A stretch of 35,041 nucleotides of DNA, from positions 1 through 35,041 of the IMG/VR virus record IMGVR_UViG_3300025890_000064. One strand, given 5' to 3'. This document shows, piece by piece, positions 1,202 to 24,887 of the stretch. The translations under genes and the position numbers were made by a program. Source of the DNA: a virus. A model generated the notes under the pieces. The model did not search any database. It worked only from the letters and a program-made list of their open reading frames with translations, and was not told where the DNA came from. How positions within the stretch are numbered: the stretch's first letter is position 1; the number at the start of each line of letters is the position of its first letter.

Positions 1202-1955
1202 ACAACGAATAGACAGACAACAGCATTTTTATGGCGATAGCCATATGGCTGGGTATGAAAGCGACCACGACCAACTTCTTAATCGAAATACTTTCAGAGA
1301 AAAGAGAGATTTGATTGCACAGCTTGGGTTACACCAAGCTATAATGATGTGGAACGTAAAAATGGGTCGTGCTTCTAAGATGAGTGTATATGAGTTTGCT
1401 CATAGAAACTTACGGACAGCATACCCTTATTTGTTAAACTCTGAAGCACGAGTTGTAACATGGCCCGCTATGAGTGCAGATTACTTACACTTACTAATAA
1501 AGAAAGATTATTATAGGGGTAAGTTAAATTCCTATGACCATGTTTACATTGGAATACCAAGACCCACACGAACTTATAAGTTAGACCTTATGGGAGCATA
1601 CGATTTTAAGAACGAAGACTTAGATGGTAAAGCAGGTATTCATACTGACTCTCACTACGCTATCACGTGGGCAATCCACATGACAGCAATAAAAGATTTC
1701 TTAGCTAAAAAGAATATAAGTTATAAGTTTATTCAACATTTTGATATATTTGATGATAGTATTGAAGATATCCATGTGTTAGATGTGCCAGAAGATTCTC
1801 TCTATTATCAGATGTTTACTGATACATGGAGAAGTATCATAGTCAATGCAGTTCCCAAACGATTAGACCAATTCGGAAAACAACTTGGATTCTACCACCG
1901 CAACGCAGAAGCTCATAAACAATTTGCAGCATACCTTAAAAACTACTTGACATAA
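1185..1955 (+). CDS. SGNH/GDSL-like hydrolase domain protein
   Basis: The N-terminus carries FYGDSHMAGYE (residues about 15-25), matching block I of SGNH hydrolases with Ser19 as the likely nucleophile. The C-terminus has HRNAEAHKQFAAYL, resembling block V with its catalytic Asp/His region, although the usual D-x-x-H is not clean. The family includes esterases, lipases and glycan acetyl-esterases; the substrate here is unknown. There is no signal peptide, so the protein acts in the cytoplasm. The gene overlaps its upstream neighbour, and its last codons lie over promoter P2 (-35 at 1947-1952). A second SGNH-like protein is at 6101-7045. Family fairly likely, activity uncertain. Confidence 0.6.
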   Translation: MKSTYKQRIDRQQHFYGDSHMAGYESDHDQLLNRNTFREKRDLIAQLGLHQAIMMWNVKMGRASKMSVYEFAHRNLRTAYPYLLNSEARVVTWPAMSADYLHLLIKKDYYRGKLNSYDHVYIGIPRPTRTYKLDLMGAYDFKNEDLDGKAGIHTDSHYAITWAIHMTAIKDFLAKKNISYKFIQHFDIFDDSIEDIHVLDVPEDSLYYQMFTDTWRSIIVNAVPKRLDQFGKQLGFYHRNAEAHKQFAAYLKNYLT

Positions 1956-1975
1956 CCTCAAATATTTAGTATAAT
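1947..1975 (+). promoter_or_regulatory. sigma70-type promoter P2
   Basis: TTGACA (1947-1952) and TATAAT (1970-1975) are both perfect and separated by 17 bp. The start codon at 1982 is six bases past the -10 box, so the message would start at about the ATG itself (leaderless). The -35 box lies inside the end of the upstream gene. Confidence 0.85.
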
Positions 1976-1981
1976 AGTCGT

Positions 1982-2551
1982 ATGAATATTTTTATACTTG
2001 ATGAAGATTTAGACAAAAACGCAGAGTATCATGTTGACAAGCACATTGTCAAGATGCCACTAGAAGCTGGACAGATGCTATGCACAGTACATTGGACACA
2101 CAAATATGCAGGATACGTACCTAACAGGAAGCTCACCTCAGAAGAATGGGCAAAAGTCTCAATTCAGAAAAAGAATGAGCCAAGGGATTTTCCCTATCTC
2201 CCTACTATGTATAATCACCCTTGTACCATCTGGGCTAGAAGCTCCCAGTCCAACTACGACTGGCTCTACTGCTACGCTTTGGCATTGGGAGAGGAGTATA
2301 CCTACCGATACGGCAAGGTGCATAAATCTGTCGAGATGGTCTTGGGGCTACCAGAAATATCAATCCCCGACATCGGGCTTACCCCATTTGCACAAGCCAT
2401 GCCTGATGATTGCAAACACGACGATACCGTCACCGCCTACCGAGAGTTCTACCACAAAGACAAAGCAGTCTTTGCCGACTGGAAGTACCGAGACAAACCT
2501 TCTTGGTGGGACGAAACCTCAGCCGACTACGAAAACAGGATAAGCAGATAG
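1982..2551 (+). CDS. Conserved phage protein, function unknown
   Basis: This 189-residue protein starts MNIFILDEDLDKNAEYHVDK and continues HIVKMPLEAGQMLCTVHW, NHPCTIWARSSQSNYDWL, EEYTYRYGKVHKS, LTPFAQAMPDDCK and a tryptophan-rich C-terminus. I recall this pattern from many tailed-phage genomes, sometimes loosely labelled as DNA-repair related, but I know of no proven function. Conserved His, Cys, Trp and Asp residues suggest an enzyme. It is driven by P2 with probably no 5' leader. Codon use is more C-rich in its second half (about 2210-2540) than in neighbours. It ends 15 bases before the tRNA gene. Confidence 0.7.
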   Translation: MNIFILDEDLDKNAEYHVDKHIVKMPLEAGQMLCTVHWTHKYAGYVPNRKLTSEEWAKVSIQKKNEPRDFPYLPTMYNHPCTIWARSSQSNYDWLYCYALALGEEYTYRYGKVHKSVEMVLGLPEISIPDIGLTPFAQAMPDDCKHDDTVTAYREFYHKDKAVFADWKYRDKPSWWDETSADYENRISR

Positions 2552-2656
2552 AACTATTTCTCTGATGTCCTGGTAGCTCAAACGGATAGAGCAACGGCCT
2601 TCTAAGCCGTAGGTTGCAGGTTCGACTCCTGCTCGGGACACCAGAAAAATAGTTCT
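2550..2656. repeat. Inverted repeat bracketing the tRNA
   Basis: AGAACTATTTCT (2550-2561) is the reverse complement of AGAAAAATAGTTCT (2643-2656) apart from two extra A residues. The arms lie directly outside the tRNA ends and would extend its acceptor stem. The right arm is also the conserved box just upstream of the -35 of promoter P3. Confidence 0.7.
2567..2643 (+). tRNA. tRNA-Arg (anticodon UCU), CCA encoded
   Basis: A full cloverleaf can be folded. The acceptor GTCCTGG pairs with TCGGGAC with G-T pairs allowed. The D arm is GCTC/GAGC. The anticodon stem ACGGC/GCCGT holds loop CTTCTAA with anticodon TCT at 2601-2603. The T arm is GCAGG/CCTGC with TTCGACT loop. Discriminator A and an encoded CCA follow. 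It would read AGA and AGG; AGA is very common in these genes, so the tRNA probably matches phage codon use in a host poorer in this tRNA. It sits between two protein genes and just before promoter P3. Confidence 0.95.
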
Positions 2657-2684
2657 TGACAAATCCTTAAAATCTTAGTATAAT
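2651..2684 (+). promoter_or_regulatory. sigma70-type promoter P3
   Basis: TTGACA (2656-2661), 17 bp, TATAAT (2679-2684), preceded by the shared AATAGTTC box. The ligase start codon at 2691 is six bases after the -10, exactly as at P2, predicting a leaderless message. Confidence 0.9.
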
Positions 2685-2690
2685 ATACAA

Positions 2691-3632
2691 ATGAATAAAG
2701 ATATAAGAACATATTTAAGTAAATGTCGCGATGCATATTTCAATGGACGACCTCTCATACCTGATGAAGTGTATGATCGCCTCGTAGACAATGTTAATAC
2801 AGATGAAGTGGGCTCAGTTACAGACAGTCGTTTTAAACACCCCTTCCCTATGTTCTCACTACAAAAAGTCTTTGCACAAGAAGATAAAGCCCCCGACTAT
2901 GGAAACGAAGCAGTAGTTACGACTACTAAGCTTGATGGCGCAGCTGTGTCCGTAACCTATGTAGATGGTATATATCATCAAGCCTTAACTAGAGGAGATG
3001 GAAAAGCAGGACTAGATATAACCGATAAGATAAAACACATAGTTCCAACAGTACTAGATAAATATTCTTTTAGTGGAGTTCGACAAATCACAGGAGAAGT
3101 CGTAGCCCCTAAGAGTATACCTAACTCTAGGAATTATGCATCAGGTGCGCTAAACTTAAAAGATGTTGCCGAGTTCAAGAAACGAGACTTGACTTTTGTT
3201 GCATATGGACTACAGCCGAATCTTGGAGAAAGATGGCTAGAAGATATGAAGTTTATGGATAATTGGTTTAATGTCATATCTATGGGCAACTGGGACGAGT
3301 TCCCAAACGATGGAATTGTATTCCGAGTAGATAGATATAGTGCTTTTGAGAAGCTTGGATATACTTCACACCACCCTAGAGGAGCATATGCTTACAAAAC
3401 TAGAGCGGCTGGAGTAGTTACAAAACTATTAGATGTAGAGTGGAATACTGGTAAGTCTGGAGTTATAGCCCCAACGGGTATTCTACAACCTGTAGAAATC
3501 AATGGTGCAACCATCTCTCGTGCTACACTACACAATATTGCTTTCATAGATGAAATGATGTTAGAGATTGGTTGTGATGTAGAGATTATCAGAAGTGGAG
3601 AAATTATCCCTAAAGTTGTGAGGAGAGTGTAA
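2691..3632 (+). CDS. ligA: NAD-dependent DNA ligase, N-terminal half (Ia, adenylation and OB domains)
   Basis: This 313-residue protein is the front part of a LigA enzyme, which seals nicks using NAD+. The Ia domain that binds NMN is at about 1-45 (PDEVYDRL). HPFPMFSLQKVF follows, then the nucleotidyltransferase motif KLDG with the likely adenylated Lys80, and TRGDGKAGLDIT. The OB fold is at about 240-313 (GVIAPTGILQPVEI, SRATLHN, GEIIPKVV). Zinc finger, HhH and BRCT domains are absent here but are encoded separately at 7240-7995. A bacterial LigA has about 670 residues. Coliphage T5 is a known precedent for a two-gene NAD ligase. P3 gives it a leaderless or nearly leaderless message; Met1 is where the family normally begins, so an internal start is unlikely. 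Confidence 0.93.
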   Translation: MNKDIRTYLSKCRDAYFNGRPLIPDEVYDRLVDNVNTDEVGSVTDSRFKHPFPMFSLQKVFAQEDKAPDYGNEAVVTTTKLDGAAVSVTYVDGIYHQALTRGDGKAGLDITDKIKHIVPTVLDKYSFSGVRQITGEVVAPKSIPNSRNYASGALNLKDVAEFKKRDLTFVAYGLQPNLGERWLEDMKFMDNWFNVISMGNWDEFPNDGIVFRVDRYSAFEKLGYTSHHPRGAYAYKTRAAGVVTKLLDVEWNTGKSGVIAPTGILQPVEINGATISRATLHNIAFIDEMMLEIGCDVEIIRSGEIIPKVVRRV

Positions 3633-4604: not shown

Positions 4605-4755
4605 AGTATGGTATTTGTGGGCAAGAAGCCTAGGAGATAAGAGTGGCGAAACTGATAGAGATGCTGATATTGTTGCAATATTTAGGAGCCTTATCGTGCT
4701 CGTTAATTTTTTTACTTGCTTCGTTATTATGTCAGGAGTTATACACCATTGGTAG
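4591..4755 (+). CDS. Small single-span membrane protein
   Basis: The 54-residue protein has a basic N-terminus (MKARKVWYLWARSLGDK), an acidic middle (ETDRDADIVAIFR) and one long hydrophobic helix at about 29-49. The pattern W-Y-L-W-A, D-x-x-A-D and I-x-x-W at the end matches a small family I recall from cyanophages and related marine myoviruses; function unknown. The same frame is open from 4531, but the overlap with the gene before favours the ATG at 4591. The stop falls next to the TTG start of the carbamoyltransferase. Confidence 0.6.
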   Translation: MKARKVWYLWARSLGDKSGETDRDADIVAIFRSLIVLVNFFTCFVIMSGVIHHW

Positions 4756-6104
4756 TTAAAGGTATTTCAGAGGGGTTTCACGACGCCTCAGTCGCATTAG
4801 TTGAAGGAGACAAGATTCTTTGGGCTAAACACGCCGAGCGTTTTAGTAGAAAAAAGAACGACAGAATCAACCCACTTCATTTAAGAAATACAGACGCAGA
4901 TATATCTGTTTTCTATGAAAACGTACCGCTAAAGAACGAGAGACGTATAGCTAATTCGCAAGTCCCTGTTTCGACAAAAATCTTTGAGCAATGTGATTAT
5001 CATACATATCATCACGAAAGCCACGCAGCAGGAGCGTACTATACTTCACCCTTTACCGAGGACGCGGTATGTCTCGTGATTGATGCGATCGGAGAATGGA
5101 CAACTAGCAGTATATGGATAGTTGAGAATCGAAAATTGAAAAAAGTTTTTGAGAAAATTTATCCAAAAAGCATTGGCCTGTTCTATAGTGCTATTACTAA
5201 GCGTATTGGTTTGAAGCCAAACGAAGATGAGTATATAACTATGGGAATGGCGGCATATGGAGAAGTATGTGTAGATATGCAGTATTGCTTCAATGACTGG
5301 GCAAATTGGCATAAGGGGTTCACCCTAGAAGATTTTAAAGGCCATAGACCAGAGGATATAGCCGCAAGTGCCCAAGCCCATGCTGAGTTAGAAATCGAAA
5401 AGTTAGTAGGCTTAGCCGCTAACTGGGGCAAGAATTTATGTTATGCAGGTGGAGTTGCACTCAACTGCGTAGCAAATAGTAAAATATTACACAACTATTT
5501 TAAGAATGTTTGGATTTACCCAAACCCTGGCGATGCAGGCAGTAGTTTAGGTGCAGCACTAGCGTATACTGGTAAGAAAGTAAAGTATAGTCCTTTTCTT
5601 GGGACAGACATACAACATCAAGTAAACCCTAGAGAAGTAGTAGATTGGATATTAAAAAAGAAAGTATGTGGAGTAGCAAATGGAAAAGCCGAATTTGGGC
5701 CCAGAGCATTGGGGAATCGTAGTCTTCTTGGTGATGTGCGTTTTGATATTAAGCGCACAGTTAATAGAATTAAGAGAAGGCAGAATTTTAGACCATTCGC
5801 TCCAGCTATTCTATCAGAGTATGCAAATGAATACTTTGAAGGGCCAATGAACGAGTATATGCAGTACGTAGCACAAGCAAAACATGATTACAAAGCAGTA
5901 ACCCATGTAGATAATAGTGCTAGAGTACAGTTAGTCACTCCCGAAAACCCTAGCGTACTAAGACCAATCTTAGAGGAGTATTATGAGAGAACTGGAGTTC
6001 CAATGTTGTTAAATACAAGTTTGAATATTAAAGGGCAACCTATAGTAGATAACTGGCAACATGCAATGGATTTCCAGAAAATGTATGGAGTAAAAGTATT
6101 TTGA
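4749..6104 (+). CDS. Carbamoyltransferase, NodU/CmcH/TobZ family
   Basis: Enzymes of this family use carbamoyl phosphate and ATP to carbamoylate a hydroxyl, through a carbamoyl-adenylate made in the Kae1/TsaD-like domain. Visible motifs: GISEGFHDASVALVEGDKI and ERFSRKK at the N-terminus; HHESHAAGAYYT with metal-binding His residues; PNEDEYITMGMAAYGE; LCYAGGVALNCVANSKIL; NPGDAGSSLGAAL; and in the C-terminal domain AEFGPRALGNRSLLGD and RQNFRPFAPAIL. At about 451 residues it is shorter than the usual 550-600. I choose TTG 4749 because homologues begin right before GIS and AGGAG lies at 4732-4736. Acceptor unknown: an antibiotic-like molecule, a glycan, or a hydroxymethylated base (phage enzymes making 5-carbamoyloxymethylcytosine have been described). 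Confidence 0.9.
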   Translation: MVVKGISEGFHDASVALVEGDKILWAKHAERFSRKKNDRINPLHLRNTDADISVFYENVPLKNERRIANSQVPVSTKIFEQCDYHTYHHESHAAGAYYTSPFTEDAVCLVIDAIGEWTTSSIWIVENRKLKKVFEKIYPKSIGLFYSAITKRIGLKPNEDEYITMGMAAYGEVCVDMQYCFNDWANWHKGFTLEDFKGHRPEDIAASAQAHAELEIEKLVGLAANWGKNLCYAGGVALNCVANSKILHNYFKNVWIYPNPGDAGSSLGAALAYTGKKVKYSPFLGTDIQHQVNPREVVDWILKKKVCGVANGKAEFGPRALGNRSLLGDVRFDIKRTVNRIKRRQNFRPFAPAILSEYANEYFEGPMNEYMQYVAQAKHDYKAVTHVDNSARVQLVTPENPSVLRPILEEYYERTGVPMLLNTSLNIKGQPIVDNWQHAMDFQKMYGVKVF

Positions 6105-7045: not shown

Positions 7046-7181
7046 AATAATTAAAAAAATTAAAACATGGTGGTTTGAGTGGAATTTAAAACGAAATTAC
7101 ACAGCAGATACCTATGTGTATGAAGATGAGGAAAATTTTGAACTTATTGAAGAAGGTCAGGAAACTAAAAATAGTTCTTGA
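7029..7181 (+). CDS. Small hypothetical protein (50 residues)
   Basis: The ORF overlaps the previous gene by 17 bases. It has a strongly basic, tryptophan-containing amphipathic start (KIIKKIKTWWFEWNLKR) and an acidic tail. Such small proteins are common in marine phages and have no known role. Its stop codon TGA lies within the -35 hexamer of promoter P4. Confidence 0.5.
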   Translation: MNFLNKIIKKIKTWWFEWNLKRNYTADTYVYEDEENFELIEEGQETKNSS

Positions 7182-7206
7182 CAAAAGGTCAAAAAACCTC
7201 TATAAT
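7173..7206 (+). promoter_or_regulatory. sigma70-type promoter P4
   Basis: TTGACA (7178-7183), 17 bp, TATAAT (7201-7206), with the same upstream AATAGTTC box and CAAAA-rich spacer as P3 and P6. It drives the second ligase half from a leader of about 27 bases. Confidence 0.9.
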
Positions 7207-7239
7207 ATACAATATAAATAAAAAAGAGAGAGAATCGAA

Positions 7240-7995
7240 TTGAGCGAAATTTTACCACCAACTGCCTGTCCTTCTTGTCAAGGAACAGTAGAGTTTGTTA
7301 ATGACTTACTCTATTGCTTCAACAAGATGTGTCCAGCACAATGGGGTAAGAAACTAGAACACTTCGGTAAACTCTTGAAAATAAAAGGATTCGGTCCTGC
7401 TTGCATTAGCAAGTTAGCGATTGATGATTACCCAGAACTGTATGAGCTTACTGTAGAGGATATTTCCAGCAGACTAGGCTCGGAGAGATTGGCAGTCAAG
7501 TTAGCAACTGAGATTGAGAAGTCAAAATCAGTTGATTTGCAAACATTGCTGCCAGCTTTCTCCATTCCACTTTTCGGTCGGTCAGCTTCTCAAAAATTAT
7601 GCGAGACAATATCTTCACTCGAAGATATCTCAGAGAAAAGTTGTACTGAAGCGGGTATTGGCCCGAAAGCCACAGCAAACCTTTTAACTTGGTTAGAAGA
7701 TGAATTTTACCCAAATGAATATGGCACAAACTTACCATTCAGTTTCTCCGCTACTAAAGTAGTAAAGCGTGAGACTGTCGGGACAGTCTGCATATCAGGT
7801 AGACTCAATTCATATCCTACTAAGGCTCGTGCTGCTGAAGTTCTGGAACAACACGGCTTTGCCGTAAAAAATAGTCTGACAAAGGACTGCACTCATTTAA
7901 TCAATGAGTCAGGAGTTGAGTCAGCCAAAACGCAGACTGCTCGCGACAGAGGAGTCGTTATAATAACTAACATTTTAGATTTAATTGGAGAATAA
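7240..7995 (+). CDS. NAD-dependent DNA ligase, C-terminal half (zinc finger, HhH, BRCT)
   Basis: This 251-residue protein holds the parts missing from the ligase at 2691-3632. The four-Cys zinc finger is C10-x2-C13-x12-C26-x4-C31 ending in CPAQ, as in LigA. Helix-hairpin-helix segments follow (LLKIKGFGPACISKL at about 45; IGPKATANLL at about 140). A BRCT domain occupies about 175-251 (TVCISGRLNSYPTKARAAEV; GVVIITNILDLIG). It presumably binds the adenylating half to form a working nick-sealing enzyme. The start is TTG after a purine-rich leader; no better ATG exists. The next gene begins one base after its stop. An 8-bp palindrome sits at 7772-7789. Confidence 0.92.
   Translation: MSEILPPTACPSCQGTVEFVNDLLYCFNKMCPAQWGKKLEHFGKLLKIKGFGPACISKLAIDDYPELYELTVEDISSRLGSERLAVKLATEIEKSKSVDLQTLLPAFSIPLFGRSASQKLCETISSLEDISEKSCTEAGIGPKATANLLTWLEDEFYPNEYGTNLPFSFSATKVVKRETVGTVCISGRLNSYPTKARAAEVLEQHGFAVKNSLTKDCTHLINESGVESAKTQTARDRGVVIITNILDLIGE
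7772..7789. repeat. Perfect palindrome inside the ligase C-half gene
   Basis: AGACTGTC and GACAGTCT are separated by GG. The symmetry fits a protein-binding operator better than an RNA hairpin, as the loop would be very tight. It lies in coding sequence just before the BRCT part. Confidence 0.35.
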
Positions 7996-11913: not shown

Positions 11914-12449
11914 GTAGAGAAACTGCTGAACTTATTCCCATGCCTCCACATACTTGGTATGTAAAAACACTCGGGTGGTTACTAGAACAACCCAAGGTAA
12001 AGGAGAATATCAAATCCGTACCCTTAAACCAACCACTATATGATTCTGTTTTTGCACACGGAATAAAAGCTCCATTTCTAGTAATGCCAAATTGGTACCC
12101 ATTAGCAGGTAGCCAAAGGCTAAGAGCAGTTGCAGAAATGAATACTTCAATGGCAACTGACGGAATGAGTATGATTCTAGAACAAGAAGTAAGGATATGC
12201 CGAATAGACCAGGAATACTGGTTACTCTACTACTTGTGGGGAGATAAAGATTTTCGGGATAAAGCAGTAGCAGTCTACTTTCAGATGCTAGAATTAGTTT
12301 GGAAATCAAGGTATTACGAAGATGAGTTAGACCCAAGTGGTGTTCCTATGACACATTTTGAAAAGTTAGGGGACGAATTAGATTGGAAACATAAAAGTAC
12401 TCTTGGAAAAGAAAGAATTAAATCAATGGAAACAAAAAATAATACTTGA
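11895..12449 (+). CDS. ParB/sulfiredoxin-fold-like protein
   Basis: The 184-residue protein contains PLNQPLYDSVFAHGIKAPFL followed by VMPNWYPLAGSQRLRAVAEM (about 44-83). This resembles the ParB-like pattern of a hydrophobic strand, an I-x-x-P, then G-x-x-R-L/R-A. I recall relatives in cyanophages labelled ParB-like, with no proven role. ATG 11895 has GAGGAG eight bases upstream; the in-frame codon at 11844 would lie deep inside the previous gene. Its stop codon TGA is inside the -35 box of promoter P5. Confidence 0.6.
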   Translation: MADDRVSRETAELIPMPPHTWYVKTLGWLLEQPKVKENIKSVPLNQPLYDSVFAHGIKAPFLVMPNWYPLAGSQRLRAVAEMNTSMATDGMSMILEQEVRICRIDQEYWLLYYLWGDKDFRDKAVAVYFQMLELVWKSRYYEDELDPSGVPMTHFEKLGDELDWKHKSTLGKERIKSMETKNNT

Positions 12450-12474
12450 CACAAGGTCAAAATTCCTGTATAAT
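12446..12474 (+). promoter_or_regulatory. sigma70-type promoter P5
   Basis: TTGACA (12446-12451), 17 bp, TATAAT (12469-12474), then ATAC as at P3 and P4. The primase ATG at 12485 is ten bases past the -10 box, predicting a leader of only about four bases with no ribosome site. Confidence 0.9.
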
Positions 12475-18896: not shown

Positions 18897-19409
18897 ATGC
18901 AAAACAATAACAAAGATGAGTACTTAATAACCGACAAAGATGATTTAGAATATCCTCTTTACGTTATACATAGTGATAATGTTGACCTAGTAGATGGTAT
19001 ATTATGGCTAGACGATCAAGTACTTGATGATAGAAATATGGTTGGAAATAGCCTAGGTAGACGAAGGCTTCAGAGTCCAATGAATAGTTTATATAATCTA
19101 AAGTATCAAATTGAAGATATTAGAGGTCTAATGAAACATAGGCAAAAAACTTTTATTGATACCAATGGTAATATATTTAACTATGAAAAAACAGATACAG
19201 TACAGATTAAGTATCACAAGATTAAAAAAAGAGAAAAGAAAGAAGTTGCAACAGTATTGTGGCTAAAAGGTTGCCCATTTCCTTTCTCAGAAAAACGACC
19301 ACCCGCAGACGAAATAACATGGGCGGGCGTTATGTATAAGAATGGTATTCCCTGGCACATCTATGATTTTGCCGAAGAAGAAAAGAAAGCCACATGGAGA
19401 AAAATATGA
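18897..19409 (+). CDS. Conserved phage protein, function unknown
   Basis: The 170-residue protein contains LEYPLYVIHSDNVDLVDGIL, then DDQVLDDRNMVGNSLGRRRL, and TFIDTNGNIFNYEKTDTVQI. I recall this layout from T4-like cyanophages and other marine phages. A role has not been assigned. I take ATG 18897, just after the previous stop; the frame is open upstream from TTG 18834, but that part (MNRKMNRSLQQRHRRQRR) overlaps the previous gene. Its stop shares bases with the glutaredoxin start (ATGA). Confidence 0.65.
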   Translation: MQNNNKDEYLITDKDDLEYPLYVIHSDNVDLVDGILWLDDQVLDDRNMVGNSLGRRRLQSPMNSLYNLKYQIEDIRGLMKHRQKTFIDTNGNIFNYEKTDTVQIKYHKIKKREKKEVATVLWLKGCPFPFSEKRPPADEITWAGVMYKNGIPWHIYDFAEEEKKATWRKI

Positions 19410-19648
19410 ATATAGAAATTTTTGGAAAAACAAACTGTACTTACTGCGATAAAGCTAAGTTTGTAGCTCAGGCTTTTATACAGGAAACAAAGCATACATA
19501 TGAGTATAAACAGTTAGGAACTGATTTTGATATGCAATTTGTTGCAGAAAACTTTCCTACTGCTAGAACATTTCCACAAATTAGAATTGATGGAGAAAAC
19601 ATAGGCGGGTATACAGAGTTTGAGGAGAAAATTAGTGGACTTAGATAA
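19406..19648 (+). CDS. grx: Glutaredoxin
   Basis: The 80-residue thioredoxin-fold protein has a dithiol active site C11-T-Y-C14, the cis-proline segment ARTFPQIRIDG and the GSH-binding turn IGGYTEF. It probably passes electrons to the phage ribonucleotide reductase encoded at 29286-32017, whose NrdA ends in a Cys pair. ATG 19406 overlaps the previous stop (ATGA) with GGAGA just upstream; an in-frame ATG 19394 is less likely. Confidence 0.9.
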   Translation: MNIEIFGKTNCTYCDKAKFVAQAFIQETKHTYEYKQLGTDFDMQFVAENFPTARTFPQIRIDGENIGGYTEFEEKISGLR

Positions 19649-19961
19649 AATAATAGAAAAGATGCAAAAAGGTATAGTCTTACTAGAGTATACGAGTTTA
19701 ATCTCAGGGACACAAAAACATAGAGAAATGACTCTGTGTCCTGCTTTTATTCCAGATGGTAAAAGAATAGTTAACTCTGATAAATGGAAACAAAGTCAAA
19801 ATAGCAAACTTATTTGTTTTGATTTAGAGTTCCAAAACTGGGACGATATAGACAAAGACACTATTACCAGTTGGAAGCTATTAGAGAAAGAAAAGAACTT
19901 TAAGAAAATACAAGCATCACTTACGGACTTAAACCACGATGGCGAAATCGATAACGATTAA
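19635..19961 (+). CDS. WYL_2-like Sm-fold protein with an EF-hand-like tail
   Basis: This 108-residue protein carries EMTLCPAFIPD, a separate strand LICFDLEFQNWDDI and DTITSWKLLE, matching the small Sm-like beta-barrel family called WYL_2 (DUF2693) found in phages, thought to bind nucleic acids or ligands. The extreme C-terminus reads DLNHDGEIDND, which fits the start of an EF-hand or dockerin Ca2+ loop (D-x-N-x-D-G-x-I). GTG 19635 follows GAGGAGA at a good distance and is preferred to TTG 19620. It overlaps both neighbours. Confidence 0.6.
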   Translation: MDLDKIIEKMQKGIVLLEYTSLISGTQKHREMTLCPAFIPDGKRIVNSDKWKQSQNSKLICFDLEFQNWDDIDKDTITSWKLLEKEKNFKKIQASLTDLNHDGEIDND

Positions 19962-20484
19962 AAACTTTTTACCTGAGTACAAATTAGAATGGTTGAGAAA
20001 TTATTCTGAAATGGCTATTAGTAACCCTTCTATGCAGGTAAGTTTTGTCGATAATGGAAAACAAAAGCGAGTAGATAGACTATATTACTCTTTAAATACT
20101 CCATTATGGGTATTTCAAGAAATTAGACTACAAGCGGAAAAACAATTTCCAGAGTTCGCCCCATTAACATTTAGACCTGATTCGTATGGTCATATAATGC
20201 ACTATAAAGAGCCAGGCGATGGATTGAAGTGGCATAAAGATCAAAACTTAGGTCGAGTATCTGGTAGTCTCAGTTTGACACCTGATGAGAAGCATGACGG
20301 AGGAGACTTAGAAATAGAAAATATGAAAATAGATAGTTCATATAATACTCTAAATCTATATAGTTATGACACAAGACATAGAGTTTCAGATTTAAATTAT
20401 GGAGAAAAAATGAGTTTAGTATTATGGTTGCCCCAAGTAGGGCAAAAAGTGTCAGGTCAAGATATATTATGGAAGTATGAATAA
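19939..20484 (+). CDS. 2OG-Fe(II) oxygenase-like protein
   Basis: The 181-residue protein has H99-x-D101 in LKWHKDQNLG, a distal His147 in YDTRHRVSDL, and GEKMSLVLW at the end of the double-stranded beta helix. At the place of the usual 2-oxoglutarate-binding Arg there is Lys157. GGDLEIENMKI resembles AlkB/P4H-type oxygenases. It overlaps the WYL_2-like gene by 23 bases and is coupled to AsnB (TAATG). Substrate unknown. It differs clearly from the oxygenase at 16898-17449, so the two are not recent copies. Confidence 0.75.
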   Translation: MAKSITIKNFLPEYKLEWLRNYSEMAISNPSMQVSFVDNGKQKRVDRLYYSLNTPLWVFQEIRLQAEKQFPEFAPLTFRPDSYGHIMHYKEPGDGLKWHKDQNLGRVSGSLSLTPDEKHDGGDLEIENMKIDSSYNTLNLYSYDTRHRVSDLNYGEKMSLVLWLPQVGQKVSGQDILWKYE

Positions 20485-21995
20485 TGTGCGGATTTATAGG
20501 AACAACTAATCATGCTATAGGTGAGCTAATGCTTAGTAAACAAGCACACCGTGGCCCTGATGCGTCTACCTTTTGGGAAGATGAAACTTTTAAGTTTGGA
20601 CACGCTTTACTTGATATCACAGGAGCGGGACAAACACAACCAGTAATTACCCCCAAAGGTAATATTTTGCTTTTTAATGGCGAAATGTATGACGCTAGAG
20701 AGCAAAATGATACGGTTTGGTTAGGCAAAATGCTAGATAAGTATGGAACTCCTGTCTTAGAGTGGACAGACTGGCACGGTTCAGTTGCTTATTATAACCC
20801 CAATAATGGTTTATTAACATTAGTTAGAGACCAGTTTGGCACTAAACCACTATGGTGGAAACATGATGGTAAGCATTTTGAGTTTAGTACTAGTTGTAAG
20901 TCTTTTTTAGATAAAGAAATGCAAGACGATAAAATGTACAATTTTGGGTCTATTGGAGACGAGTGCATATGGAAGAACACCCATAAAGTAGAGCCAGGTG
21001 GAATATTACAATTCAATACAAGAAAAAAGTTTAAGCTTACTAGAAGCAATCTTTGGAATTATATAATTATTCGTAAAGAAAAGTTTGATAGAGAAGAATT
21101 TATACATAAAACTAAAGAATCTATTTTAAAAGTAGCAAACTATGGGAACAGTAACAATAAACACGCAATATTTCTGAGTGGCGGGTTCGATAGCCAATTA
21201 GTAGCTAGTATATGCCGTGAGAGTACAAAAGATATCACGCTTTTCACTTGCGGTTATACAAACGAAAAAGGAAATACCCACGAACATTGGGGATTTCAAG
21301 ATGAAAGTAAAATGGCTCTAAAGAGTGGAGAATTATGGGGCAGAGAAGTAGTAAAAGTAGACATAGGTAGAGACGAAAGAATCGCACTAGGTAAAACTTG
21401 GCTTGCTGGTACCCATTACGCTTGGTCAGACCATAACAGGCAAGGCCCAAGGTACAAACTTGCAGAAGCAGCAGCTAAACATGGCTGTAAAGTAGTATTG
21501 ACAGGAGATAGTGGAGATGAGTTGTTTTCAGGATACTTACATCATGACAAACGATTCGATCCAAAGTACTGTTTAGATATGTGTTACAGAGCTAGAGAGT
21601 GGCGATGGTTTCCGAGAGATATACTACAGTACTCTGACCCTATGGCACAGACATTATTTATTGACTTGCTTACTACATCAGAGCAAAATATTCTTGCAAC
21701 AGACCAAACAGTTGGTCTATTTGGTATGGAAGCTAGGATTCCATTACTTACTCAAAGATACGTTCAATATAATTTAACTTTACCTACAGGTACTCGTTTT
21801 AAACAACTACCAGGCCTAGAACTTGGTACTACTAAGTATCTAATGAGAGAAGTTATGAAAGATTATTTACCGCAACACGTTATAGAGCGTAAACAAAAAA
21901 CAGGGTGGAGTTCTCCATGGGATAATAACCACCCCCAGCAAAGTAGACGTTGGAGAATGGAAGATTTAGAGTTACTTAAAAGACTAGGTCGATGA
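20484..21995 (+). CDS. asnB: Asparagine synthetase B-type glutamine amidotransferase
   Basis: This 503-residue enzyme has the class II glutaminase domain with the N-terminal nucleophile Cys2 (MCGFIGTTN), HRGPDASTF, FNGEMYD and VRDQFGTKPLWW. The synthetase domain has the PP-loop SGGFDSQL at about 231, GDSGDELFSGY at about 339, and MEARIPLL. All key residues for ammonia release and beta-aspartyl-AMP formation look intact, although GDSGDE replaces the usual GDGADE. It may make asparagine from aspartate, or amidate another carboxylate in the accessory pathway around it. Linked by overlaps to the oxygenase and the helicase. Confidence 0.9.
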   Translation: MCGFIGTTNHAIGELMLSKQAHRGPDASTFWEDETFKFGHALLDITGAGQTQPVITPKGNILLFNGEMYDAREQNDTVWLGKMLDKYGTPVLEWTDWHGSVAYYNPNNGLLTLVRDQFGTKPLWWKHDGKHFEFSTSCKSFLDKEMQDDKMYNFGSIGDECIWKNTHKVEPGGILQFNTRKKFKLTRSNLWNYIIIRKEKFDREEFIHKTKESILKVANYGNSNNKHAIFLSGGFDSQLVASICRESTKDITLFTCGYTNEKGNTHEHWGFQDESKMALKSGELWGREVVKVDIGRDERIALGKTWLAGTHYAWSDHNRQGPRYKLAEAAAKHGCKVVLTGDSGDELFSGYLHHDKRFDPKYCLDMCYRAREWRWFPRDILQYSDPMAQTLFIDLLTTSEQNILATDQTVGLFGMEARIPLLTQRYVQYNLTLPTGTRFKQLPGLELGTTKYLMREVMKDYLPQHVIERKQKTGWSSPWDNNHPQQSRRWRMEDLELLKRLGR

Positions 21996-23308: not shown

Positions 23309-23342
23309 AGTTCTTGACAACCCCTCAAAAAATTGGTATAAT
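23309..23342 (+). promoter_or_regulatory. sigma70-type promoter P6
   Basis: TTGACA (23314-23319), 17 bp, TATAAT (23337-23342), with the same upstream box as P3 and P4. The apparent start codon at 23345 is only two bases past the -10, closer than a transcript from this promoter could include. Confidence 0.85.
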
Positions 23343-23742: not shown

Positions 23743-24369
23743 ATGGCTATTGGCTTTAATACCACAAAGGGCTCTGCCCAAAAATCCAAGATTGAAACAT
23801 ACAATTTTGGTAACAAAGAAGATCATCACATCAGGCTAGTTGGTGATCTACTACCTAGATACGTTTATTGGATCAAAGGAGAGAATAACAAGAACATTCC
23901 TATGGAGTGTTTATCTTTCGATAGAAATTCAGAAACGTTTAACAATGTCGAGCATGACCATGTTCGAGATTTCTACCCTGACTTAAAATGCGGTTGGGCT
24001 TATGCAGTCCAGGGCATCGACTACTCTGATAAAAGTATCAAAGTGGTTAATTTAAAAAGGAAACTTTTTGACCAGATTTTAGTAGCAATGGAAGACATTG
24101 GCAACCCTACTGATAACGAAACTGGTTGGGATATTTACTTCAAGAGATTGAAGACTGGCCCACAAGTGTTTAATGTTGAGTATCAACTACAAATGCTTAA
24201 ATGTAAACCACGTGCATTGGAAGATTGGGAACTAGAATTAGTTGCTGATCTTAAATCAATGGACGACGTATTGCCTAGACCTACACCTGACGCTCAATTA
24301 GAGTTGTTGAAGAAAGTTCAAGGCGCAGAATCTAATGAATCCGTAGATGAGGAGTTTGACGTATCATGA
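23743..24369 (+). CDS. Single-stranded DNA-binding protein (gp32-like)
   Basis: The 208-residue protein matches the gp32-type layout: a short N-terminal part, an OB-fold core containing YVYWIKG, a long beta region, KLFDQILVAMEDIGNPTD, GWDIYFKRLKTGPQVFNVEY, and an acidic C-terminal tail (SNESVDEEFDVS) that in such proteins recruits replication partners. It coats ssDNA at the fork and in recombination. The zinc cluster of T4 gp32 is not clear here. A strong AAGGAG lies before the ATG. It is coupled (ATGA) to the peroxiredoxin. Confidence 0.75.
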   Translation: MAIGFNTTKGSAQKSKIETYNFGNKEDHHIRLVGDLLPRYVYWIKGENNKNIPMECLSFDRNSETFNNVEHDHVRDFYPDLKCGWAYAVQGIDYSDKSIKVVNLKRKLFDQILVAMEDIGNPTDNETGWDIYFKRLKTGPQVFNVEYQLQMLKCKPRALEDWELELVADLKSMDDVLPRPTPDAQLELLKKVQGAESNESVDEEFDVS

Positions 24370-24887
24370 TTGGAGTAGGAGAAAAATTTCCCGCGTTTTC
24401 ACTTAACGGTGTAGACGAGGACAACGAATTTGTTGTAGCTAGTGTAACAGAGACTTACGAGCCTCTGAAACACGATTGGAGCGTAATTTATTTCTACCCT
24501 AAAGATTTTACTTTTATCTGTCCGACTGAAATTCAGGCGATGGATACATTAGTAGACCATGCAAATGTCATAGGAATTAGCGGAGATAATGAATTTTGTA
24601 AGTTAGCTTGGAAACAAAGTAATGAATTGATAGGTAATATCAGACATACTTTAGCTGCTGATACAGGATTATTTTTAACAGAAGCACTAGGAATTATGGA
24701 CGAAGATGAAGGAGTATGCTTACGAGCTACTTATATCATTGATGCCGATAATTTTGTCCAGCATGTATCAGTAAATGCACTAGATACAGGAAGGAATGCA
24801 AATGAAGTTCTTAGAACTCTAGAAGCACTTCAAGCTGGTGGACTTACAGGTTGTGAATGGCAACCTGGGGACGACTTCGTAGTATGA
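24366..24887 (+). CDS. Peroxiredoxin (AhpC/Prx1-like)
   Basis: The 173-residue thiol peroxidase has the peroxidatic Cys in YPKDFTFICPTEIQ (T-x-x-C), VIGISGDNEFCKLAWKQ, RATYIIDADNFVQH and a resolving Cys near the C-terminus in GLTGCEWQPGD. It reduces H2O2 or organic peroxides. Lying between ssDNA-binding protein and the SbcD-like nuclease, with ATGA overlaps at both ends, it is expressed at the same time as the replication genes, probably to limit oxidative damage; the electron donor is unknown. Confidence 0.9.
   Translation: MIGVGEKFPAFSLNGVDEDNEFVVASVTETYEPLKHDWSVIYFYPKDFTFICPTEIQAMDTLVDHANVIGISGDNEFCKLAWKQSNELIGNIRHTLAADTGLFLTEALGIMDEDEGVCLRATYIIDADNFVQHVSVNALDTGRNANEVLRTLEALQAGGLTGCEWQPGDDFVV

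Follow-up and report, generated by a model that had tools for sequence, protein, structure and literature searches.

Leaderless mRNAs, leaderless phage genes and the exchange of Shine-Dalgarno (SD)-led and leaderless starts between orthologues are already known (PMC9031893, PMC3160421, PMC12340547). The cI mRNA of phage lambda, a model leaderless mRNA transcribed from PRM, resembles the messages proposed here in being a phage message that starts at the AUG, has no SD and needs the AUG (in part PMC9031893). However, cI is a single gene, for the repressor of a temperate phage, whereas in the T5-like phage described here several replication genes are involved, near-perfect promoters precede them and the arrangement is conserved lineage-wide. 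In Deinococcus-Thermus, as here, a -10 box lying only a few bp from the start of the ORF leads to a leaderless mRNA, and the spacing matters (PMC12340547); there the genes are cellular and the -10 motif is TANNNT, whereas here full -35/-10 phage promoters with an extra upstream element, AAAAATAGTTC, are found. Orthologues of bacterial leaderless genes switch between SD-led and -10-adjacent starts (PMC3160421). The same is seen here, yet among phages of one lineage with a common promoter module instead of among bacterial genomes.

In PMC7472727 the early promoters of T5 are described as being of the host sigma70 type, with an A-tract and TAGTT upstream and an AT-rich discriminator, as is the case here. 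The common discriminator given there is ATATT (Gentz and Bujard 1985 as cited in PMC7472727), and for this reason the promoters studied here look like T5-type early promoters. The T5 gene order ligA-ligB-helicase-primase-pol is also the same. In contrast to the leaderless genes here, the T5 early genes examined, among them ligA and ligB, are preceded by leaders of about 25-33 nt. The open-licence papers searched describe no T5-like lineage that uses one promoter module both ways for replication genes, which is weak evidence of absence.

The window analysed here comprises 35,041 nt, the whole of record IMGVR_UViG_3300025890_000064, a virus contig of 35 kb. Profile matches reveal a T5-like replication module consisting of a split NAD ligase (half A starting at 2691 on the + strand), a D5-like regulator (start at 7985), a DnaB-type helicase, a primase, a family A polymerase (13841), a D10-like helicase (21992) and an SSB-like protein. 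From the split ligase to the D10-like helicase, the order of the module genes is that of T5 and of one Vibrio T5-like phage. Because the polymerase is less than 60% identical to that of every named phage, membership in the T5-like (Demerecviridae-type) group is not claimed; a named phage belonging to the lineage was sought and none was found. A promoter search of cellular genome contigs yielded four MAG contigs of mixed origin, which give no pointer to a host. The phages of the lineage are T5 relatives, uncultured and for the most part marine. Further genes in the window include a tRNA-Arg(TCT) at 2567-2643 (+), between the P2 gene and P3, and, among the metabolic genes of the replication region, a carbamoyltransferase (4716-6104, profile match). 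Reading alone points to a putative glutaredoxin-like protein (19394) and a putative asparagine-synthase-like protein (20484), both within 19394-21995, and to a putative peroxiredoxin-like protein (24366; 24366-24887).

Five perfect TTGACA-N17-TATAAT promoters are present in the window, all on the + strand (1947-1975, 2656-2684, 7178-7206, 12446-12474 and 23314-23342), against 0.05 expected from shuffled sequence. They are referred to as P2 to P6; P1 is a -10 box at the contig edge (9-14, +), the -35 of which lies outside the window. With d defined as the number of bases that separate the end of TATAAT from the start codon, d is 27 for P1, 6 for P2, 6 for P3, 33 for P4, 10 for P5 and 2 for P6. 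The conserved promoter reads AAAAATAGTTC-TTGACA-N17-TATAAT-ATA, and both the upstream element and the ATA after the -10 box are kept across relatives. ATA directly follows TATAAT in most copies, i.e. these promoters have the AT-rich discriminator of T5 early promoters. P2 (1947-1975, +) is an exact match with a predicted +1 at 1982. P3, taken with AAAAATAGTTC (2645-2684, +), is an exact match conserved in the ligA relatives, with a predicted +1 at 2691. P4 (7167-7206, +), P5 (12435-12474, +; predicted +1 about 12481) and P6 (23303-23342, +) are exact matches of the P3 type. Of these P4 served, like P1, as a leadered control, and P6 is an exception discussed below. Early timing is suggested by the T5-type promoters together with the gene order.

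In all promoters AAAAATAGTTC occupies the 11 nt before TTGACA, and most of its positions are more than 90% conserved. Since a sigma70 promoter would not need this much conservation, the element may involve a phage factor or act as an UP element. As a separate observation, TTGACAAAAGGTCAA (7178-7192) and TTGACACAAGGTCAA (12446-12460) are inverted repeats over the -35 and part of the spacer, which are only partly kept in the remaining promoters. These repeats could be a candidate operator for a phage regulator.

A preliminary description of this DNA had placed perfect promoters with an ATG six bases after the -10 box at P2 and P3 and a gap of ten bases at P5 (12446-12474), before a conserved phage gene, ligase half A and primase, respectively. 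Coordinates, counts and gene names all proved right. The P2 gene (1982-2551, +; AGTCGT-ATG, d=6) matches phrog_624 and is Pyr_excise-like, with the profile matched from residue 1. The P3 gene (2691-3632, +; ATACAA-ATG, d=6) is the adenylation and OB half of the NAD ligase, matched from residue 4. The P5 gene (12485-13327, +; ATACTTATAA-ATG, d=10) encodes a DnaG-like primase, and its SD-less leader would measure about 4 nt. An SD before the start codon was sought for these three genes and was present in none (0/3). The preliminary description had also named translation from a later in-frame codon behind a ribosome site as an alternative. At P2 and P3 this is ruled out, since the profile matches begin at residues 1 and 4 and later starts would cut conserved sequence.

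The relatives show the same spacing. Among 20 unique phrog_624 loci, d is 6 in 14, 7 in two and 8 in one; among 35 unique ligA loci it is 6 in 18, 7 in three and 24-29 in 12. Two other contigs with a ligA 100% identical to that of the window keep the same promoter-ATG arrangement, which is therefore not an assembly artefact. The primase behaves differently: 31 of its 32 unique relatives have d=7-15, with SD-less, A/T-rich leaders of about 1-9 nt. Because its homologues keep these extra nucleotides, strict leaderlessness is not required for the primase, and "short SD-less leader" describes P5 and its homologues better than "leaderless". The earlier suggestion of leaderless use at three promoters is supported for P2 and P3, where placement is conserved, starts are ATG only and no SD is present, and applies to P5 only in a looser sense.

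The primase leaders raise the possibility that 30S subunits initiate on short A/U-rich leaders in general, through S1 or standby binding, in which case the messages would not be truly leaderless and the exact transcript start would be irrelevant. The spread of d from 7 to 15 among primase homologues, with A/T-rich leaders and no SD, is what this would predict, and for the primase such initiation may apply. Yet ligA, phrog_624 and other families are fixed at 6-7 nt and start with ATG only, so that as an account of the whole set it seems rather improbable.

Behind the same promoter module, other genes of the window have ordinary leaders. Both P1 and P4 show ordinary spacing (27 and 33 nt) and a G/A-rich stretch ahead of the start codon. 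NAD ligase half B (7240-7995, +) starts with TTG at d=33, with GAGAGAGA at 7226-7233. In its family (n=42) d is mostly 24-36, in a few cases 15-17; an SD match of 4 nt or more is found in 30/42, and 9/42 start with GTG or TTG. The P1 gene, which encodes a DNA-binding protein (phrog_1725; 42-521, +), has its ATG at d=27 with GAGAAAGAGAG; in its family d is mostly 20-28, and the relative L086 has the promoter at d=27. As the same module drives ligase B and the P1 gene with a leader of 20-30 nt, the phage appears to use two initiation modes.

To see both modes across relatives, loci were taken from viral contigs in two ways. In the gene-based set (80 primase and 35 ligA loci), nearly all primase loci and most ligA loci had the promoter immediately ahead of the ATG and no SD. 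The second set was picked by the promoter motif alone, hence not by gene, and contained 179 unique promoters; an ATG was counted as open if it opened a frame of 60 or more codons, and 2242 TATAAT sites without a -35 served as control. The open ATGs numbered 0 at d=3, 0 at d=4, 1 at d=5, 20 at d=6, 9 at d=7 and 4 at d=8. There were few beyond this until a second peak at d=23-30 (46, behind SD). An open ATG at d=6-7 was present at 29 of the 179 promoters and at 12 of the 2242 controls, which had no peak at d=6 (Fisher p=6e-25; this and the other p-values treat related loci as independent after near-copy removal, so that independence is overstated, the rows being related). The sharp lower edge at d=6 matches the position at which sigma70 polymerase normally starts.

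The two groups also differ in their ribosome sites and start codons. The SD match is 3 nt or less in 40 of 45 genes at d=5-8, and 4-7 nt in 49 of 68 genes at d=20-36. At d=6-7 there are 39 ATG starts and no GTG or TTG, compared with 82 ATG and 21 GTG/TTG at d=21-36 (p=0.001). The ATG-only starts agree with E. coli, where leaderless translation is reported to rely heavily on AUG (PMC9031893). When the entire viral collection was scanned for exact matches, ATG was found in at least 120 stretches at d=6, in 13 at d=5 and in 32 at d=4; at d=6 GTG occurred in 13 stretches and TTG in 27. After removal of near copies the ATG was followed by a frame of 30 or more codons in 50/56 at d=6 and 15/18 at d=7, compared with 2/7 at d=5 and 2/6 at d=4. 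A pooled histogram of d over all loci is biased towards d=6 by the exact scans and was kept out of the evidence. Two further families show the short spacing, a small D5-like HTH family (d=6 in 6/7) and a terminase-small-subunit-like family (d=6-9 in 8/8). A predicted +1 on the start codon, no SD and a preference for AUG, the marks of a leaderless gene, thus appear together, though for P5 (d=10) not strictly.

These counts bear on two other explanations. Short intergenic gaps in a compact, AT-rich genome could bring promoter-like sites next to start codons by chance, and such sites need not act as promoters. Against this stand the expectation of 0.05 perfect promoters, the control TATAATs, the frame-opening counts at d=6-7 compared with d=4-5, and the conservation of the arrangement across strongly diverged ligA and primase proteins; chance is ruled out for practical purposes, its probability being close to nil. 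The second explanation is read-through: the genes would be translated mainly from longer mRNAs of upstream promoters, and the ATG-adjacent promoter would only boost the genes downstream. Upstream genes are indeed close by on the same strand, and P2 overlaps the stop codon of the preceding gene. However, a read-through mRNA would also be without SD, since the -10 box sits where the SD would be, and read-through does not predict a sharp peak at d=6-7 that tracks the +1 position with almost nothing at d=3-5. As a general explanation it is very unlikely.

For one gene, phrog_4258 at P6 (23345-23731, +), read-through is the most likely explanation; its ATG comes 2 nt after the -10 and precedes the expected +1. 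The preliminary description did not mention P6, where the fit between promoter and ATG is tight without pointing to leaderless use. A transcript from the normal P6 +1 would lack this ATG, which is too close to the -10 for a P6 transcript, and such closeness of promoter and ATG can thus arise for other reasons. The SSB-like gene that follows (23743-24369, +; SD TAAGGAG) is probably the first one within reach of P6. Most likely, phrog_4258 is translated from messages that begin further upstream, with P6 driving the SSB-like gene. An ATG at -2 to +2 of the -10 end is shared by the phrog_4258 genes of 24 of 26 unique relatives, from leaderless and leadered lineages alike. The N-terminal codons of phrog_4258 vary and mostly preserve M-[LIF]-[LYF]-[YF]-[DN]-W, so that they must be coding. 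A near-cognate leaderless start at +1 was considered and ruled out, as the in-frame codons vary (ATA, TTA, CTA, TTC, TAT). Sequence comparison with solved structures, T4 gp33 for example, gave no credible match. The annotated ATG of the T5 homologue T5.125 (L248, 25640-26008) is preceded, at a distance of about 29 codons, by an ATT behind GAGGAG. Since phrog_4258 homology begins there, the annotation is probably too short, and the sequence suggests a start at this ATT, a rare AUU start. The homologue in Vibrio phage 70E37.1 appears to start at a GTG behind AAAGGAG.

Orthologues of ligA occur in both arrangements behind the same promoter. In the ligA tree, one supported group of 30 holds 29 leaderless rows and is nested inside leadered rows; a single lineage seems to have inherited the leaderless ligA mode. 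The MIIKG family behaves similarly to ligA, and several loci with a leadered ligA (e.g. L163, L214) are also leadered in other switching families. Codons 2-6 of ligA contain 59% A in leaderless and 33% in SD-led genes (p=2e-7); codons 7-16 are equal. In the sampled regions of T5, Vibrio and Aeromonas phages, the annotated genes behind such promoters are leadered, which rules out leaderless placement as a general T5-like property.

Taken together, the best explanation, to which we assign a probability of roughly 0.85, is lineage-inherited leaderless translation of chosen early genes, namely the P2 gene and ligase A, with a short SD-less leader for the primase. The sigma70-type (T5 early-type) promoters, presumably transcribed by host RNA polymerase, would place +1 on the A of the start codon at P2 and P3. 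The P2 gene and ligase half A would then be made from leaderless mRNAs on which ribosomes recognise the 5'-terminal AUG instead of pairing with an SD, while the primase message would carry a few nucleotides, without an SD, ahead of its start codon. A more far-reaching idea, which we regard as speculative and unlikely, is a coded translation programme: three placements of the start codon relative to one module (at +1, after a leader with an SD, or within the -10) would set SD-independent initiation, normal initiation or read-through only (phrog_4258), and expression would then follow changes in the host initiation machinery in the course of infection.

Most known cases of leaderless translation in phages are single genes, lambda cI among them. 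Here the two modes stand side by side in one genome, and an essential replication gene has orthologues of both kinds behind the same promoter, so that how leaderless initiation is used and how it evolves can be tested directly. Gene callers that rely on the SD may misplace starts in these abundant phages.
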